Shown here piece after piece: positions 45,100 to 52,642 of a DNA stretch of 64,000 nucleotides (positions are counted from its first letter, which is position 1; every line of letters begins with the position of its first letter). The position numbers were made by a program, and so were the translations under genes. The stretch is from Bradyrhizobium arachidis (GTDB taxonomy: Bacteria; Pseudomonadota; Alphaproteobacteria; Rhizobiales; Xanthobacteraceae), in the NCBI RefSeq assembly GCF_015291705.1, contig NZ_CP030050.1, forward strand, positions 3,100,001 through 3,164,000, read 5' to 3'. The notes below the pieces were generated by a model, which saw nothing but the letters and a program-made list of their open reading frames with translations, was not told the origin of the DNA and did no database searches.

Positions 45100-45299
45100 G
45101 CCGTAGCTCTTTTAGCTATCGGCGGGTGTCCTGAAACTTGTCGGCCCAGACCGGTCGGCTCACGCGATCATTCATGCCGGGGCCGCAACGTCGGTGCGCC
45201 GCGGCAGCGATCTCGCCGTCTGCACCTGCCTCTCATTCGACCCATGAAGCCCAAATTCTCGGTATGGGCCTTGGCTTGCCCATTTCGACGGCTTGGAAT

Positions 45300-45311
45300 A
45301 TGTATAGACAT
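45300..45311. promoter_or_regulatory. Operator-like palindrome, left copy
   Basis: ATGTATAGACAT, preceded by GGAAT, lies 21 bases before the ABC ATPase gene. The same GGAAT-ATGTnTAGACAT sequence recurs at 49916-49932 before the divergent end of the cluster. TGTCTAGACA-like sites are typical of GntR/HutC-family repressors; that assignment is inference. The remaining 45100-45299 shows no gene. Confidence 0.7.
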
Positions 45312-45332
45312 GTTCGTTGAAGGTTGATCGGC

Positions 45333-46124
45333 ATGGATGATCGCGTGCTCGTGTTCGACGGGATAGGCCAGGACTTTCCGTCGCCGGGGCAGCGAACCCA
45401 GATCCGTGTGCTGGACGGGATCAGCTTCGAGGCCGCCCGCGGCAAGTTCATCGCGGTGATCGGACCGAGCGGCTGCGGGAAAAGCACGCTGCTCCAGATG
45501 GCCGCCGGCCTGCTCTTTCCAACGCGCGGGACGGTCCATCACCGTGGCCGCAAGGTCACGTCGGTCAATACCGAGGTGGGCTTCGTGCCGCAGCAGGCGC
45601 AGCTGTTGCCCTGGAAGACTCTTGCCGAAAACGTCGAGTTGCCGCTGGTGCTCCGCGGCGTCCCCGCGCACGAACGGCAAAAACGGGTTGACGATGTCCT
45701 TCGGTCTGTTGGCCTGACGGGGTTCGAGCAGCATTATCCGAGCCAACTCTCCGGCGGCATGCAGAAGCGCGGATCGATCGCGCGCACGCTGGTCTATCGT
45801 CCCGACGTGATCCTGATGGACGAGCCGTTTGGCGCTCTCGATGCCCAGACCCGTATGGTGATGCAAAGCGATCTCCAGACCCTGTCTATGGAAGCCGGCG
45901 CCACCGTCATATTCGTCACCCATGACATTACCGAAGCCGTGCTGCTCGCCGATAACGTCGTCGTGCTGAGCCAGAGGCCCTCACGGCTGCTCGCCAATAT
46001 CGAGATCAGCCTGCCCCGGCCGCGCAACATGTTCGAGCCGTTCAAGAACCCCAGCTTCGATGCCGCCTACGACGCCGTCTGGACCGAATTTCGTTCCCAG
46101 CTTCAAGCCGGACAGATCCATTGA
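45333..46124 (+). CDS. ABC importer ATPase (nitrate/sulfonate/taurine family)
   Basis: A 263-residue ATPase. Walker A is GPSGCGKST (residues about 44-52), the Q-loop is FVPQQAQLLPWKT, the signature is QLSGGMQKR and Walker B is VILMDEPFGALDAQTR, with a FVTHDITEA switch His. It closely follows the SsuB/TauB/NrtD pattern. It powers the permease and binding protein that follow. The start ATG follows GAAGGTTG; a TTG three codons earlier is possible. It sits behind the palindrome at 45300-45311. Confidence 0.94.
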   Translation: MDDRVLVFDGIGQDFPSPGQRTQIRVLDGISFEAARGKFIAVIGPSGCGKSTLLQMAAGLLFPTRGTVHHRGRKVTSVNTEVGFVPQQAQLLPWKTLAENVELPLVLRGVPAHERQKRVDDVLRSVGLTGFEQHYPSQLSGGMQKRGSIARTLVYRPDVILMDEPFGALDAQTRMVMQSDLQTLSMEAGATVIFVTHDITEAVLLADNVVVLSQRPSRLLANIEISLPRPRNMFEPFKNPSFDAAYDAVWTEFRSQLQAGQIH

Positions 46125-46138
46125 GCGAGCAGCAGGCC

Positions 46139-46981
46139 ATGAGCGAAGCTGCATCCCGGTCTTCGATCGCGTCAACGCGTGCGGGCGGCGGACCGGGCTT
46201 GATCGGTGCGAAAGCTTTGCAATGGCTTGCGAAGCTCCTGCCGGGTATCGCACTTCTGGTTTGCTGGCAGTGGGCCTCGGGGCGGTTGATCAAGGAGATC
46301 TACGTCAGCAAGCCGACGGCGGTTGCCGCGCGCCTGTACGAGTTGTTCGCCTCCGGCGAAATCTATCCGCATCTATGGATCACCGGGCAGGAGCTCGTGC
46401 TCGGTTACGTTATCGGCGTCTCAGGCGGTGTTTTCGCCGGTTACGCGCTTGGTCGCTCGCCGCGGCTTGCCCGGATATTCGAGCCCTATGTGATGGCCTT
46501 CTACGGGGTTCCCAAGATCGCGCTGGCACCGCTGTTCATCATCTGGTTCGGCATCGGCATCGGATCGAAGGTCGCGCTTGCCTCGATCATGGTGTTTTTC
46601 CTGGTCTTCTACAACGTGTTCGCCGGCGTCCGCAGCGTCGATCGCGAGCTCGTCAATCTCACGCTGGTGATGGGTGCCAACCAGCGCCAGCTGACCTATC
46701 ACGTCTTCCTGCCCGCCGCCGCCCCGTTCGTCATGCTCGGCATGCGGCTGGCGATTCCTTACAGCGTCATTGGTGTCATCGTCGGCGAGTTCACATCGTC
46801 GATGCAGGGGCTCGGCCTGTTCATCCATGAGGCGTCGTCGACCTACGATCCTGCCGGCGTTTTCGCGGGGATCGTCATCCTGCTCGGCTTCGTTACTTTT
46901 GCAAACCTCGTTGCCGGCGCGATCGAGCGTCGCCTTCTGCGCTGGCGAACATTGTCGGGTTCAGGCCCGATCGACGCTTGA
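46139..46981 (+). CDS. ABC importer permease (SsuC/TauC type)
   Basis: A 280-residue permease with about six helices. The docking loop is in VDRELVNLTLVMGANQRQLTYHVFLPAAAPF, and KIALAPLFIIWFGIGIGSK is the strongly conserved SsuC/TauC block. The start is uncertain: ATG at 46139 after AGCAGG, or TTG at 46121 overlapping the ATPase stop. It is followed 17 bases later by the binding protein. Confidence 0.93.
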   Translation: MSEAASRSSIASTRAGGGPGLIGAKALQWLAKLLPGIALLVCWQWASGRLIKEIYVSKPTAVAARLYELFASGEIYPHLWITGQELVLGYVIGVSGGVFAGYALGRSPRLARIFEPYVMAFYGVPKIALAPLFIIWFGIGIGSKVALASIMVFFLVFYNVFAGVRSVDRELVNLTLVMGANQRQLTYHVFLPAAAPFVMLGMRLAIPYSVIGVIVGEFTSSMQGLGLFIHEASSTYDPAGVFAGIVILLGFVTFANLVAGAIERRLLRWRTLSGSGPIDA

Positions 46982-46998
46982 ATCGGGAGAATTGATCC

Positions 46999-48039
46999 AT
47001 GCGCGTCACGATGAAATGGGCGAGGGCGGCCACGGTCGCCGCGGCAATCGCCTTGCCGCCCAGCCTCGCCGAAGCCCAGCAGGCGGTTCGCATCGGATTG
47101 GGAGCCCCGACGTTAAGCTTCCTCCCGGTCTGGTCGGGGCGCGCGCTCGACACGTTCAAGCCGCAAGGCCTCACCGCCACGATCGCCGCGTTGCCCGGCG
47201 GCGATGCGTCCGCACTCGCGGCGCTCGATGCGGGTGATATCGATCTGGCCGCAGTCGGTCCGGATTCGATGCTGCGTGCGGTGGCCAAGGGCCAGCCGTT
47301 CGAGATCGTCTATTCGTTGATGTCGAAAGTGACGCTACAACTCGTCGTGTCCAAGGACTTCCTCGAACGCGCCGGCGTGAAGCCGACCGATCCCCTGCCG
47401 AAGCGGCTGGCCGCCCTGAAGGGCGCGACGTTCGGCGCGACCGCGCTCGCCGGCGCACAGGAGGCCGCGGCGCGCTGGCTCGCCGGTCAAGGCGGGCTCG
47501 ATGCGAAGAACGATATCAAGGTGGCGCAGGTCGGCAGCCCCATCGCGATCCAGGCGGCGCTCGAGGCCAAGCGCATCGATGCCTTCGTTCTTTCTCCGCC
47601 CGAGGGATTTCTTGCGGAGAAGGCGGGTACTGGCCTCGTGCTCGTCTCGATGGGCGATGAATTCCCGCTTCTCGCCAAGCAACCCTATCTCGTCCTGGTC
47701 GCAAAGAAGCCGATCAGCCCTGGCGCCTCCGAGCTGATCCAGAAGACGGTCAATGCGATGCAGGCGGCAAGCGCAGCCGTGCTCGACAAGCCAGCCGAGA
47801 CGGCTGACGCGATCCAGAAGCAGTTCTTCGCCAAGGCCGATCCGCAGGCGATCGCCTCGGCGGTCAAGAGCATGAGCAGCGGTGTGGCGGGCCGCGGCGC
47901 GATCGACGTCGACGGCATGAAGAACGCGCTGACCTTCAACAAGGAGGTAGGCAACAATTTCGGCAAGGAATTCGACGCCGCGGCGACCAAGGACGATTTG
48001 TGGACCAACAGCTTCGTGGACGCGGCGAAGGCCAAATAG
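46999..48039 (+). CDS. ABC importer substrate-binding protein (SsuA/NMT1-like)
   Basis: A 346-residue periplasmic binding protein. Signal peptide at residues 1-29 (KWARAATVAAAIALPPSLAEA), then VRIGLGAPTLSFLPVWSGRALDTF, a GGDASALAALDAGDIDLAAVGPD block and LKGATFGATALAGAQEAAARW, which match the NMT1/SsuA family. These bind sulfonates, nitrate, thiamine precursors or aromatic acids. It completes a three-gene importer and is convergent with the PhnD-like gene. The ligand is unknown. Confidence 0.92.
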   Translation: MRVTMKWARAATVAAAIALPPSLAEAQQAVRIGLGAPTLSFLPVWSGRALDTFKPQGLTATIAALPGGDASALAALDAGDIDLAAVGPDSMLRAVAKGQPFEIVYSLMSKVTLQLVVSKDFLERAGVKPTDPLPKRLAALKGATFGATALAGAQEAAARWLAGQGGLDAKNDIKVAQVGSPIAIQAALEAKRIDAFVLSPPEGFLAEKAGTGLVLVSMGDEFPLLAKQPYLVLVAKKPISPGASELIQKTVNAMQAASAAVLDKPAETADAIQKQFFAKADPQAIASAVKSMSSGVAGRGAIDVDGMKNALTFNKEVGNNFGKEFDAAATKDDLWTNSFVDAAKAK

Positions 48040-48051
48040 AGCAGGCGGCGC

Positions 48052-48891
48052 CTAGCCTGGTTGCGCATAACCGGCGGCGCGCGCTTCGGCATCCCAGCGC
48101 AACGTGAGCTCGTAGCTGGCAAGGTCGACGGCAGCGAAGGCGTCGAGGCAGAGTCGCTCGCGGAGGGATGCGCAGGCGGGAGCCGCTGCAAAGCCCCAAA
48201 GCGCCGTCTGCAGTGCGGCGATAACGTCGTCGGGGCACCCGCCTGCCGCGACCAGAAAGGGGATCGGCGCAAGGTCGGTGGTCGCGACGATGCGGATCTG
48301 CGAGTCGAGTAGCGGATCGTGGCGCAGCATCAGATCCAGCGCATAGCTGTCGAGCGGACCGACGTCGATCTCATCGTCGAGAAGCGCCCTGATGACCCGG
48401 CCTGGTGTCGTGAGGGGCCCGACGCTTTCGCGATAAAGGTTCGCACCGCGTTGTCGATAATGCGGCAAGAGATGGTGGCGCAGGGCGTTGTAACCCGAAT
48501 GCGAGTCCGGGACGGTGAAGCCAAGCCGGCCGCCGAACGTGTCTTCAAGCGATCGAAATCGGGAGTCGGCACGGACGACAAGGCGCGTCGCATACACCGG
48601 CATCCCGCCGTAGAGCGCGCCGAATGGAACAGGCGCGGCGACAGGCCGGGGGCGGTCGGCCGCGAGCATGAACGGAAATCCGCACATGAAGGCGGCACCG
48701 AGGTCCCTGCGCGCCCACAGATCGGACAGCGGTAGCGGGAATGCATGATCGATGACGTCAAGGGCAATCCCGCTCTCGCGCGCCAGCCAGTCGAACAACT
48801 CGGTCCAGGCCGCAGCCGCTGCAGGCACGCCCGAATACATCCGCGCGTTCGCGACGTAGTACAGCGTGGACGGCCGTGCGCCGCCAGTCAT
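48052..48891 (-). CDS. PhnD-like substrate-binding-fold protein without signal peptide
   Basis: A 279-residue protein with the type 2 periplasmic binding fold of the PhnD family: LYYVANARMYSGVPAAAAAW, LGAAFMCGFPFMLA, LGFTVPDSHSGYNALRHHLLP and LLDDEIDVGPLDSYALDL appear in the usual order. It has no signal peptide, so it may act in the cytoplasm as a sensor or enzyme, or start wrongly. The ATG overlaps the stop of the ornithine-cyclodeaminase-like gene (ATGA, 48888-48891), so the two are coupled. It meets the importer operon tail to tail with 12 bases between them. Confidence 0.85.
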   Translation of the reverse strand: MTGGARPSTLYYVANARMYSGVPAAAAAWTELFDWLARESGIALDVIDHAFPLPLSDLWARRDLGAAFMCGFPFMLAADRPRPVAAPVPFGALYGGMPVYATRLVVRADSRFRSLEDTFGGRLGFTVPDSHSGYNALRHHLLPHYRQRGANLYRESVGPLTTPGRVIRALLDDEIDVGPLDSYALDLMLRHDPLLDSQIRIVATTDLAPIPFLVAAGGCPDDVIAALQTALWGFAAAPACASLRERLCLDAFAAVDLASYELTLRWDAEARAAGYAQPG

Positions 48892-49889
48892 GCAAACCGC
48901 AGACGTTGGCCGATGCCGAGACGCTCGGCCTTCTCCAGCATGGCATGACCCAGTGCGATGTCGGAGAGCGAAAGCCCGCGATGCCAGAGCAGATTGGTCT
49001 CCGCGTCGCTTTCGCGGCCAGGTTTCAGCCCGGCGACGATCTGTCCAAGCTCGGCGTGCAGCGTCTTCTCGGACAGCTTGCCGGCCTCGACGTGCGCGCG
49101 GAGGCTGCCGAACTTGCCCCCTTTGCACTGCCCCCAATCGTCGACCACGAGCTTGGCCATGATATCGGTCAGTGAGAGCTCGATCGCGCTCATCGTGCCA
49201 TAGGGGACGACGAAGGCGCCCTTCTTGATCCATTCGGTCTTGAGCATGGGCGCCGGTTTGTCGAGACGGGACGCCTCGACGACGATGTCGGCGCCTTCGA
49301 GGCAGGACTGCCAATCCGCGGTTGCGATGACCTTCTTTCCGAGATCGCGCGAGAGCCGTTCGGCAAAGCCATTACGGCTGTCTTCTCGCCGCGAATGGAC
49401 CCGGATCTCGTCGAAGTCGAAGAGATGATCGAGCAATCGCACGTTCCAATAGGCGGTGCCGCGCGCCCCGATATGTCCCAGGACTTTCGAGTTCTTTCGG
49501 GCGAGATATTTGGCGCCGATCGCGGTGACCGCACCTGTGCGCATGTCGGTGATGCCGCTGGCGTCCATGATCGCTTTCGGCGCACCGTTTGACGGGTCGA
49601 ACAGGGTCAATATTCCCAGCTCCGAATGGAGGCCGAGCTTGTAATTGTCGACGAAGTCGCCGACGACCTTCACACCGGCCCTGTCGATAGGCGCCTTGAT
49701 CGCCCCGCGAAGCACGTTGAAATGACCGTTCGCCACGCCCGGTTCGAGATGGACTCGCGGTTCGATGACCGTGTCGCCACGGCCTTGCGCCGCCAGGCTA
49801 GTCTCGATCGCGGCCAGGATCTCCTCGTCGGTGATCTTGAGCTCCTCGATGTCGAGGCGATTCAGATAGGCGATGTAGATCGGCGGCAT
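48888..49889 (-). CDS. Ornithine cyclodeaminase/mu-crystallin-family enzyme
   Basis: A 333-residue NAD-dependent protein. The Rossmann core is VLGHIGARGTAYWNVRLLDH with HSRREDSR at the next strand; upstream blocks KVVGDFVDNYKLGLHSELGILTLFD and ITDMRTGAVTAIGAKYLA are the family signatures, with the substrate-binding Arg and Lys. Relatives include ornithine cyclodeaminase, alanine dehydrogenase and ketimine reductases. The GxGxxG is GHIGARG rather than GxGxQG. It is first in a two-gene operon, 31 bases after the palindrome at 49921-49932. By context it acts on the compound the neighbouring importer brings in. Confidence 0.92.
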   Translation of the reverse strand: MPPIYIAYLNRLDIEELKITDEEILAAIETSLAAQGRGDTVIEPRVHLEPGVANGHFNVLRGAIKAPIDRAGVKVVGDFVDNYKLGLHSELGILTLFDPSNGAPKAIMDASGITDMRTGAVTAIGAKYLARKNSKVLGHIGARGTAYWNVRLLDHLFDFDEIRVHSRREDSRNGFAERLSRDLGKKVIATADWQSCLEGADIVVEASRLDKPAPMLKTEWIKKGAFVVPYGTMSAIELSLTDIMAKLVVDDWGQCKGGKFGSLRAHVEAGKLSEKTLHAELGQIVAGLKPGRESDAETNLLWHRGLSLSDIALGHAMLEKAERLGIGQRLRFA

Positions 49890-49920
49890 GGCGAGGCTCC
49901 CGAGAAGACGGCTCCGGAAT

Positions 49921-49932
49921 ATGTCTAGACAT
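49921..49932. promoter_or_regulatory. Operator-like palindrome, right copy (perfect)
   Basis: ATGTCTAGACAT is a perfect 12-base palindrome, 31 bases upstream of the ornithine-cyclodeaminase-like gene and preceded by GGAAT as at the left copy (45300-45311). It is probably the binding site of the regulator that also controls the importer. No regulator gene is found in the cluster. Confidence 0.75.
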
Positions 49933-52124: not shown

Positions 52125-52550
52125 TTACGCGGGCGCGTCCAGCGCCTTCAGATCGTCCGCCGCGGTGACGATCGCATTGCGGATTATCAGGAAATACTCC
52201 GCATCGATCCGGGAGGCGAGCCAGTCCAACTCTCCCCTGTAGCCGTGTTCATTCTCCTTGCGGACCACGCCTTCCTCGATCAGGGCTTCGAGGCAGCGGC
52301 GGACGTTGGAGCGCGGCAATCCCAGATGCCTGGACAGGTCGGAAGCCGTCAAGGGCGGTGCGCCGAGATCGTCGGCGACGCGGATCGCCAGCGCCGTCAG
52401 CAGCTCTTCGAACACCGCGCCGAGATGCTTGCGCGCGTAGCCACTGCGCATCGCCACGAAGCAGGCCACGGTCAAGCGGCCGATGATCGCCGATTGCTTG
52501 TGACGCTTCGCCAATGCTGGATCTGAATTGTCTGAGGTTTTCCCGGCCAT
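52125..52550 (-). CDS. Winged-helix DNA-binding protein (MarR/GntR-like)
   Basis: A small regulator of about 141 residues. The helix-turn-helix is in PLTASDLSRHLGLPRSNVRRCLEALIEEGVVRKENE (about residues 75-110), a winged-helix pattern. The part before it is helical and could dimerise. No ligand or metal domain is seen. The start is uncertain: ATG at 52550 after GAGAGTGG, or ATG at 52577. It lies beside a run of small hypothetical genes; its targets are unknown. Confidence 0.75.
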   Translation of the reverse strand: MAGKTSDNSDPALAKRHKQSAIIGRLTVACFVAMRSGYARKHLGAVFEELLTALAIRVADDLGAPPLTASDLSRHLGLPRSNVRRCLEALIEEGVVRKENEHGYRGELDWLASRIDAEYFLIIRNAIVTAADDLKALDAPA

Positions 52551-52642
52551 TTTCGCCACTCTCGTTTTTGCTTGCATTTGTGTTTAGCGGGGGCATCTTC
52601 GTTTGCAAAACGCGCGGAAAACGCGAAGCAGAAAACGCGGAT

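Follow-up and report, generated by a model that had tools for sequence, protein, structure and literature searches.

A convergent importer and enzyme cluster of Bradyrhizobium arachidis as a probable HutC-controlled remnant of a second hut locus

Which regulator controls, and which substrate is served by, a five-gene cluster in which an ABC importer operon and an enzyme operon meet tail to tail, with the same palindrome at both outer ends? The cluster lies in a stretch of 64,000 nt from Bradyrhizobium arachidis (hereafter the window; positions 3100001–3164000 of genome G000, a single contig of 9,865,973 bases). One operon encodes the importer, and the convergent one encodes an enzyme of the ornithine-cyclodeaminase/mu-crystallin family (OCD) and a PhnD-like protein. 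An earlier sequence-only reading had seen in this layout one regulon, with an importer, an NAD-type enzyme and a PhnD-like protein for a substrate that it left open, and had considered it a candidate for an undescribed system.

The layout and the coordinates of both palindromes were confirmed. The idea of one regulon stood, with shared control sites at both ends that are kept in relatives. What changed is its identity: the operator of the main histidine (hut) operon has a matching sequence. The cluster is very probably the HutC-controlled outer part of a second hut locus ('hut2'), judging from gene order and site conservation. Because the palindrome matches the main hut operator and the cluster appears to be a hut2 remnant, the substrate should be histidine-related and is no longer wholly open. 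The term undescribed would now apply to the roles of the OCD and PhnD-like proteins and not to the rest of the cluster.

The palindrome and its match to the main hut operator

A search of the window with up to two mismatches returned just the two sites (4 matches, counting both strands). The count alone is not beyond chance at that laxity: 4 matches were also reached in 12 of 100 shuffles. In the whole genome, ATGTMTAGACAT was found exactly at 3 places (reversed control: 0), and with one mismatch 7 times forward and 6 times reverse (control: 2 and 2). The one-mismatch sites elsewhere in the genome were recorded as loci L004–L007.

The third exact copy is located at 7266153 in the main hut locus, where it separates hutI from hutF. 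The OCD-end site is identical to this hutI–hutF site, and the ATPase-end site differs from it at one position. The main locus carries hutU-hutH-hutI on one side of the site and, on the other, hutF-hutC-ABC importer-amidase; the gene names rest on similarity. HutI, HutF and HutC exceeded their NCBIfam cut-offs, and HutH matched PF00221. Exactly ATGTCTAGACAT was present between hutI and hutF in all 13 main-type hut loci fetched (G000 and 12 relatives). In the relative G149, the second hut locus is of a different kind and carries TTGTCTATACAT.

Only one HutC was found in G000 at E ≤1e-40. It is encoded at the main hut locus (7267595–7268278) and scored 309 bits against a cut-off of 220. Since the third copy adjoins the only HutC gene found and is kept in 13 of 13 hut loci, the site shared by both operons is most likely a HutC operator. 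Published sites agree with this assignment: the available text of PMC4494728 gives NyGTMTAKACNy as the HutC-subfamily consensus, and that of PMC12977541 gives TGTA-N2-TACA for Pseudomonas HutC. The repressor of the Bradyrhizobium hut regulon is HutC blr6245 in B. diazoefficiens, according to the available text of PMC10454721.

Conservation was followed in relatives. The OCD gene was found (E ≤1e-60) in 23 of 242 genomes of the genus, the window's own included. One locus (L059 of G214; OCD 81% identical, other context) was set aside, leaving 22 (the window and L038–L058). The OCD-end 12-mer was kept in all 22 (19 exact, 3 with one mismatch), and the ATPase-end 12-mer was exact in all 16 orthologous loci examined; this count leaves out L049, L054 and L055, and L052 has no importer. 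The ATPase-end site also occurs in G238 (L203). Outside the genus, the OCD-end site was missing in Rhodopseudomonas locus L076. The mean majority-base share at the OCD end was 0.97 in the site, 0.55 upstream and 0.58 downstream. At the ATPase end the contrast was weaker (0.98, with 0.78 and 0.73 in the flanks). The sequence-only reading had itself raised the case of a palindrome that is common and not kept in homologous clusters; these counts speak against it. A chance palindrome was rejected, as the element is rare in the genome and kept in relatives. The GGAAT directly before both 12-mers (45295–45299 and 49916–49920) was rejected as a fixed part of the site, as it is not kept in relatives, where an A/T extension alone recurs.

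The earlier reading had also proposed to look for a GntR-family gene next to the cluster. HutC is encoded inside the cluster in 15 of the 22 loci; one such copy was tested and scored above the HutC cut-off. Within the window, a helix-turn-helix gene at 52125–52577 was rejected as the cluster regulator, its best match being IclR-type and not GntR.

The position of the operators suggests how they may act. TTGACA begins 24 bases before the operator at the OCD end of the window, and TTGAC is found 5′ of this operator in 22 of 22 loci (at −24 in 19, −23 in 2 and −27 in 1). The ATPase end has a conserved CTTGC(C/T)C at the corresponding place in 16 of 16 loci. As the operators sit behind these elements, where a −10 box is expected, we infer repression by occlusion. 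A sigma-70 consensus scan called no promoter at the thresholds used (0, against 0.6 expected). Of the 7 genomes with the main HutC only, 3 have the symmetric form ATGTCTAGACAT at the OCD end, against 0 of the 15 others, possibly a retuning to the main HutC; two of the three genomes are close relatives.

Table 1. Genes and control sites of the cluster (positions in the window)
Feature	Position	Strand	Remark
Putative HutC-type operator ATGTATAGACAT, ATPase end	45300..45311		begins 33 bp before ATPase ATG
ABC importer ATPase, SsuB/TauB/NtrD-like	45333..46124	+	TTG start possible at 45324
ABC importer permease, SsuC/TauC-like	46121..46981	+	
Substrate-binding protein, NMT1-like	46999..48039	+	PF13379, PF09084; N-terminal signal-like hydrophobic stretch (judged by eye)
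Junction between the two stop codons, 12 bp	48040..48051		place of the hut core in 12/22 loci
PhnD-like protein, type II binding-protein fold, 279 aa	48052..48891	-	PF12974
OCD family enzyme, 333 aa	48888..49889	-	
Putative HutC-type operator ATGTCTAGACAT, OCD end	49921..49932		begins 43 bp before OCD start

The PhnD-like gene overlaps the upstream OCD gene by 4 bp. Just 5′ of the importer operon, the window encodes a small zf-UBP zinc-finger protein (PF02148; 44743–45099).

A second hut locus and the loss of its core

The window cluster itself contains no hutH, hutU or hutI. Its relatives show what may have been lost. In 12 of the 22 loci, hutU, hutI, hutF and hutC were found in the fetched stretch, in each case with hutD. 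This core has the order hutD-hutU-hutI | hutF-hutC and lies between the OCD-PhnD pair and the importer side. Beyond hutC, the importer is present in full order in 9 of the 12. Three loci (L043, L045 and L050) retain hutC; their hutD is intact in L043, where HutD was confirmed by Pfam, and in L045, and is in two pieces in L050. No core gene was found in six loci (the window, L038–L041 and L044). The core genes hutD, hutU, hutI, hutF and hutC were also seen in Rhodopseudomonas (L071, L076), in a metagenome-assembled genome (MAG) of Xanthobacteraceae (L072) and in an unclassified MAG (L091). In the loci examined, including those with hutU and hutI, hutH was not found inside the hut2 core. It is well supported by these comparisons that the window represents a form that lost its hut core, i.e. 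a remnant of hut2.

The locus set aside and a second Bradyrhizobium locus (L059:3266-12534 and L060) hold a different cluster with two OCD-family genes, one of them partial in L060, and an importer about 65% like that of the window. RidA-, FMO-, TPP-enzyme- and DUF1028-like genes (by eye) accompany them.

Core loss went along with the presence of another hut locus. Another hut locus was present in 13 of the 22 genomes (main type in 12, a different kind in G149); in these 13, the core was lost or partial in 10 and intact in 3. In the 9 genomes with no other hut locus at the cut-offs used, it was intact in all 9 (one of them, G195, is 62% complete). Fisher's test gave 4.4e-4, with relatedness ignored. 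In a tree of OCD DNA, the losses fell on at least about four branches (the window's five-genome clade, L040, L043 with L045, and L050), with L052 perhaps a fifth; some forks were weak. Relics of hutF and hutU remain in L050.

The outer genes are still under purifying selection. Ratios of non-synonymous to synonymous substitution rates (dN/dS) were 0.02–0.04 for OCD, 0.04–0.09 for the ATPase, 0.06–0.12 for the permease, 0.07–0.11 for the binding protein and 0.15–0.22 for PhnD (window, L038, L040, L041 and L044; L040 counted without the binding protein, L039 left out, and some dS values exceeded 1). Hence, OCD is the most constrained of the five genes. In the six core-less loci, the ATPase-end site is exact in all 6, and the OCD-end site is exact in 5 and has one mismatch in the sixth. 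As purifying selection persisted after core loss, the outer genes probably do something that the ordinary hut operon does not.

Compared with the HutC hut regulon of Proteobacteria, the operator and repressor are the same, and hutD, hutU, hutI, hutF and hutC stand in the cluster of relatives. The differences are that hut2 has no hutH, that the window has no core, and that OCD and PhnD-like proteins are not named in the available text of PMC10454721. Our literature searches, which covered few subscription papers, did not turn up any description of an OCD or PhnD-like protein that belongs to a hut or ergothioneine cluster.

The proteins and their company in other genomes

OCD is a member of the OCD/mu-crystallin superfamily (PF02423: 182.7 bits, cut-off 24). 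It stayed below every NCBIfam cut-off among its 13 hits (best: 180.7 against 409 bits, TIGR02371), and its score did not place it among ornithine cyclodeaminases, alanine dehydrogenases, EutC or SbnB. Its clade is distinct, with 73–96% identity in an 18-row alignment, and Lys74, Arg45 and Arg117 are invariant. Archaeoglobus fulgidus alanine dehydrogenase (1omo; E 5.5e-42 with the A2 profile) and pyrroline-2-carboxylate reductase (6t3e) belong to the same family. OCD differs from 1omo in that the segment IGADGPGKQEL aligns with YGTMS--AIEL, so that the Asp, which we take to be catalytic, is replaced. The structure model was of middling confidence (mean predicted local distance difference test, pLDDT, 77.5). 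OCD as a direct betaine lyase was rejected, as we see no convincing NAD-based mechanism for a quaternary amine.

The PhnD-like model reached a mean pLDDT of 94.3 and was closest to AioX/ArrX, followed by PhnD/PtxB (Foldseek E 2e-22 for AioX, about 1e-14 for PhnD). It shares the type II binding-protein fold with these proteins. Unlike them, it has no apparent signal peptide, with about 11 residues before the first strand, and its partner is an enzyme and not an importer. The lack of a signal peptide makes a cytosolic location most likely in this model. Its scores were far from the PhnCDE phosphonate importer families (34 against 261 and 32 against 112 bits), and its operon partner is OCD. In five MAG loci (L078, L080, L081, L082 and L086), a PhnD-like gene lies directly 3′ of a sarcosine/dimethylglycine-dehydrogenase-like gene (92–100% alike). 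In L081 it overlaps the 3′ end of that gene, and a PF16867 (DMSP-lyase family) gene is next, which could be another N-methyl or onium setting for the PhnD-like protein.

The importer stayed below curated SsuABC, TauABC and nitrate cut-offs (ATPase 210 against 360, permease 120 against 295, binding protein 55 against 163 bits). An identity as phosphonate or sulfonate importer was rejected because the respective cut-offs were missed.

When named genomes were scanned with the PhnD alignment, 64 loci were obtained. OCD and PhnD share a locus in Methylobacterium, Bosea, Ancylobacter, Arenibaculum, Trabulsiella and Enterobacter. The importer of the Methylobacterium locus (L079) is related to that of the window (70–85%). 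Twelve loci have a HutH-family protein; 4 of these keep the MIO motif, and the other 8 are HutH-like lyases of 29–38% identity to HutH, all of which miss the Ala-Ser-Gly of the motif. OCD and PhnD are both present in 6 of these 8 loci, and PhnD only in L093 and L113. An OpuC/ProX-type binding protein is present in 7 of the 8. For both MIO-less lyases searched, the best match in the PDB was ergothionase. Ergothionase (PDB 6s7j) and the NF058531/NF058532 enzymes described below thus lie near OCD/PhnD orthologues in other genomes; in contrast, none is in the window cluster.

The association was also seen in 385 genomes of the class. OCD was found in 26, the lyase in 11 and both in 10 (Fisher 3e-12). 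In the eleventh lyase genome (G346), an OCD of 63% lies directly beside the lyase. PhnD was found in 14, of which 12 have OCD (Fisher 4e-14). Some OCD loci adjoin hut genes: L165 holds OCD, a betaine-type binding protein, a lyase and an importer, convergent with hutD and with a hutU cut by the contig end, and in L167 hutF lies directly before OCD. A fatty-acid-desaturase-like protein adjoins OCD or PhnD-like/HutH genes in L125:7706-9814, L186:6167-8134 and L182:7302-8183 (PF00487 tested in L186 only), with an XRE-type regulator in two cases.

Putative genes for S-methyl-ergothioneine breakdown are found beside some hut2 loci. In L055, L056 and L058, an operon on the OCD strand ends just before the OCD operator. 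Its products are a branched-chain-type importer, a DUF917-type protein, a GST and a urocanase paralogue. Two of them exceed a cut-off in L056: the urocanase paralogue that of NF058531 (S-methyl thiourocanate hydratase; 957 against 880 bits) and the DUF917-type protein that of NF058532 (S-methyl thiohydantoin desulfurase; 548 against 450). The urocanase paralogue is in the same place in L071, L072 and L091. In G047 and G108, comparable operons are located past the importer end. In G149, a transposase-like gene (by eye) interrupts the operon (L055:13743-14900). A UbiX-type flavoprotein gene (L200:9442-10044, PF02441) and UbiD-family genes (L204:5940-7346, passing TIGR00148; L208:186-1568, by eye) occur close to the S-methyl thiourocanate hydratase operon or to hut2 genes, possibly marking a decarboxylating branch.

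What the cluster may do

The following explanation fits these data best. HutC from the main locus would act in trans and repress both operons by occupying the −10 region. Urocanate, which releases HutC in Pseudomonas, would induce the five genes together with the hut operon. The NMT1-type importer would bring in a derivative of histidine that is not directly usable by the main hut operon, for which hercynine or an ergothioneine relative (N-methylated or betaine-type histidine) is a candidate. OCD and the probably cytosolic PhnD-like protein would act on this derivative or its products, and the imidazole skeleton would then enter the Hut pathway at or before urocanate. We consider this explanation as a whole, i.e. 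a hut2 remnant that forms a HutC-controlled arm for uptake of a histidine derivative, to be fairly likely. For the substrate taken by itself, we slightly favour a histidine derivative that is neither plain histidine nor urocanate; an N-methylated or betaine-type histidine is a tentative choice that is less likely than not. Both estimates were lowered a little because the OCD loci without such neighbours were recounted and because the S-methyl-thiourocanate operons are co-directional and have no site of their own.

Several observations weigh against this picture. Four hut2 loci are irregular: L049 ends before the importer, L052 has OCD-PhnD only and no importer, L057 has permease and ATPase without a binding-protein gene, and L056 (G052) has its binding-protein gene inverted, with the ATPase-permease pair further off. 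Near this ATPase (L208) there is no site within one mismatch; G052 carries an exact site before its binding-protein gene (L056:16912). The PhnD-like gene is split over two reading frames in L039:9555-10390 (G088; the same place is L075:10001-10836), beside an intact OCD. No site within one mismatch was found at the start of the S-methyl-thiourocanate operon in the seven stretches checked, so that its control by HutC is not supported.

The genomes of the class add further reservations. No ergothionase-like lyase was found at the cut-off in 16 of the 26 OCD genomes, and PhnD and the lyase co-occur in only 3 genomes (p = 0.005, weak). Among 25 further OCD loci of the class (L165–L189; stretches of up to about 8 kb on each side, several cut by contig ends), 19 have no hut, lyase, HutH-like or PhnD gene. 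The remaining 6 have an ergothionase-like lyase or hut gene (L165, L167, L175), a distant HutH-like protein without a match to the MIO pattern used (L169, L177) or PhnD (L168). These searches scored only the first few candidates per genome, so that misses are possible, and relatedness is not accounted for in the Fisher values. No lyase is part of the hut2 loci in Bradyrhizobium, and all 8 PF00221 proteins inspected from hut2 genomes retain the MIO motif; a betaine step there would therefore need another enzyme. G000 gave no ergothionase-like lyase at E ≤1e-80 (4 of 35 candidates scored), and the link of the cluster to ergothioneine or hercynine breakdown runs through orthologues in other genomes. 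The sole PF00221 protein found in this genome is HutH.

An unlikely alternative is that hut2 is a urocanate-scavenging locus, in which the importer brings in urocanate, which induces via HutC and enters at HutU, with side roles for OCD and the PhnD-like protein. This would account for the hutH-less hut2 core in the loci examined. PF00221 proteins were found in 20 of the 23 genomes and in none of G047, G052 and the incomplete G195. G047 and G052 (99 and 100% complete) have hutU, hutI and hutF, and so would start from urocanate or make it otherwise. Scavenging leaves unexplained why OCD is retained under such strong constraint, and why it is tied to MIO-less lyases and betaine-type importers elsewhere. 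A more far-reaching reading would cover genomes such as these two as well, which keep HutU, HutI, HutF and S-methyl thiourocanate hydratase and have no PF00221 protein found: OCD and the PhnD-like protein might form a route from a histidine derivative, perhaps a betaine, to urocanate without a HutH-family lyase. We regard such a route as quite improbable.

Equally improbable, and less so than the options that follow, is that the importer is a further histidine importer of the HutC regulon, with OCD as an accessory amino-acid dehydrogenase or cyclodeaminase. The available text of PMC5343134 predicts a new histidine ABC transporter, HisXYZ, as a member of HutC regulons in Rhizobiales; the window importer would likewise be HutC-regulated. 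The main hut locus of G000 already has a separate ABC set beside hutC, yet the hut2 importer was kept after core loss, and OCD is far under all NCBIfam cut-offs that it hits.

That the cluster is a decaying relic with no function of its own is very improbable. The core is gone, and L039 combines a PhnD gene in two frames with a mismatch in the OCD-end site. Against this stand the dN/dS values of 0.02–0.22 among five core-less loci (L039 left out) and the sites kept in all six. Another regulator with the same palindrome and a histidine-unrelated role (phosphonate, sulfonate or ornithine use) would suit the PhnD-like and SsuABC/TauABC-like names and the similar palindromes common to GntR regulators (available text of PMC4494728), and is hardly credible given that the third genomic copy is the hut operator and that 15 of 22 loci have hutC within the cluster.

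The analysis would give two so far anonymous proteins, of which one is conserved very strongly, a testable place at the margin of histidine catabolism, controlled by HutC. That the core was lost repeatedly and the outer genes were kept is a natural experiment that suggests a role beyond the standard pathway. If the substrate is a histidine betaine, the cluster would open the question of how soil bacteria recycle hercynine and ergothioneine-type compounds.

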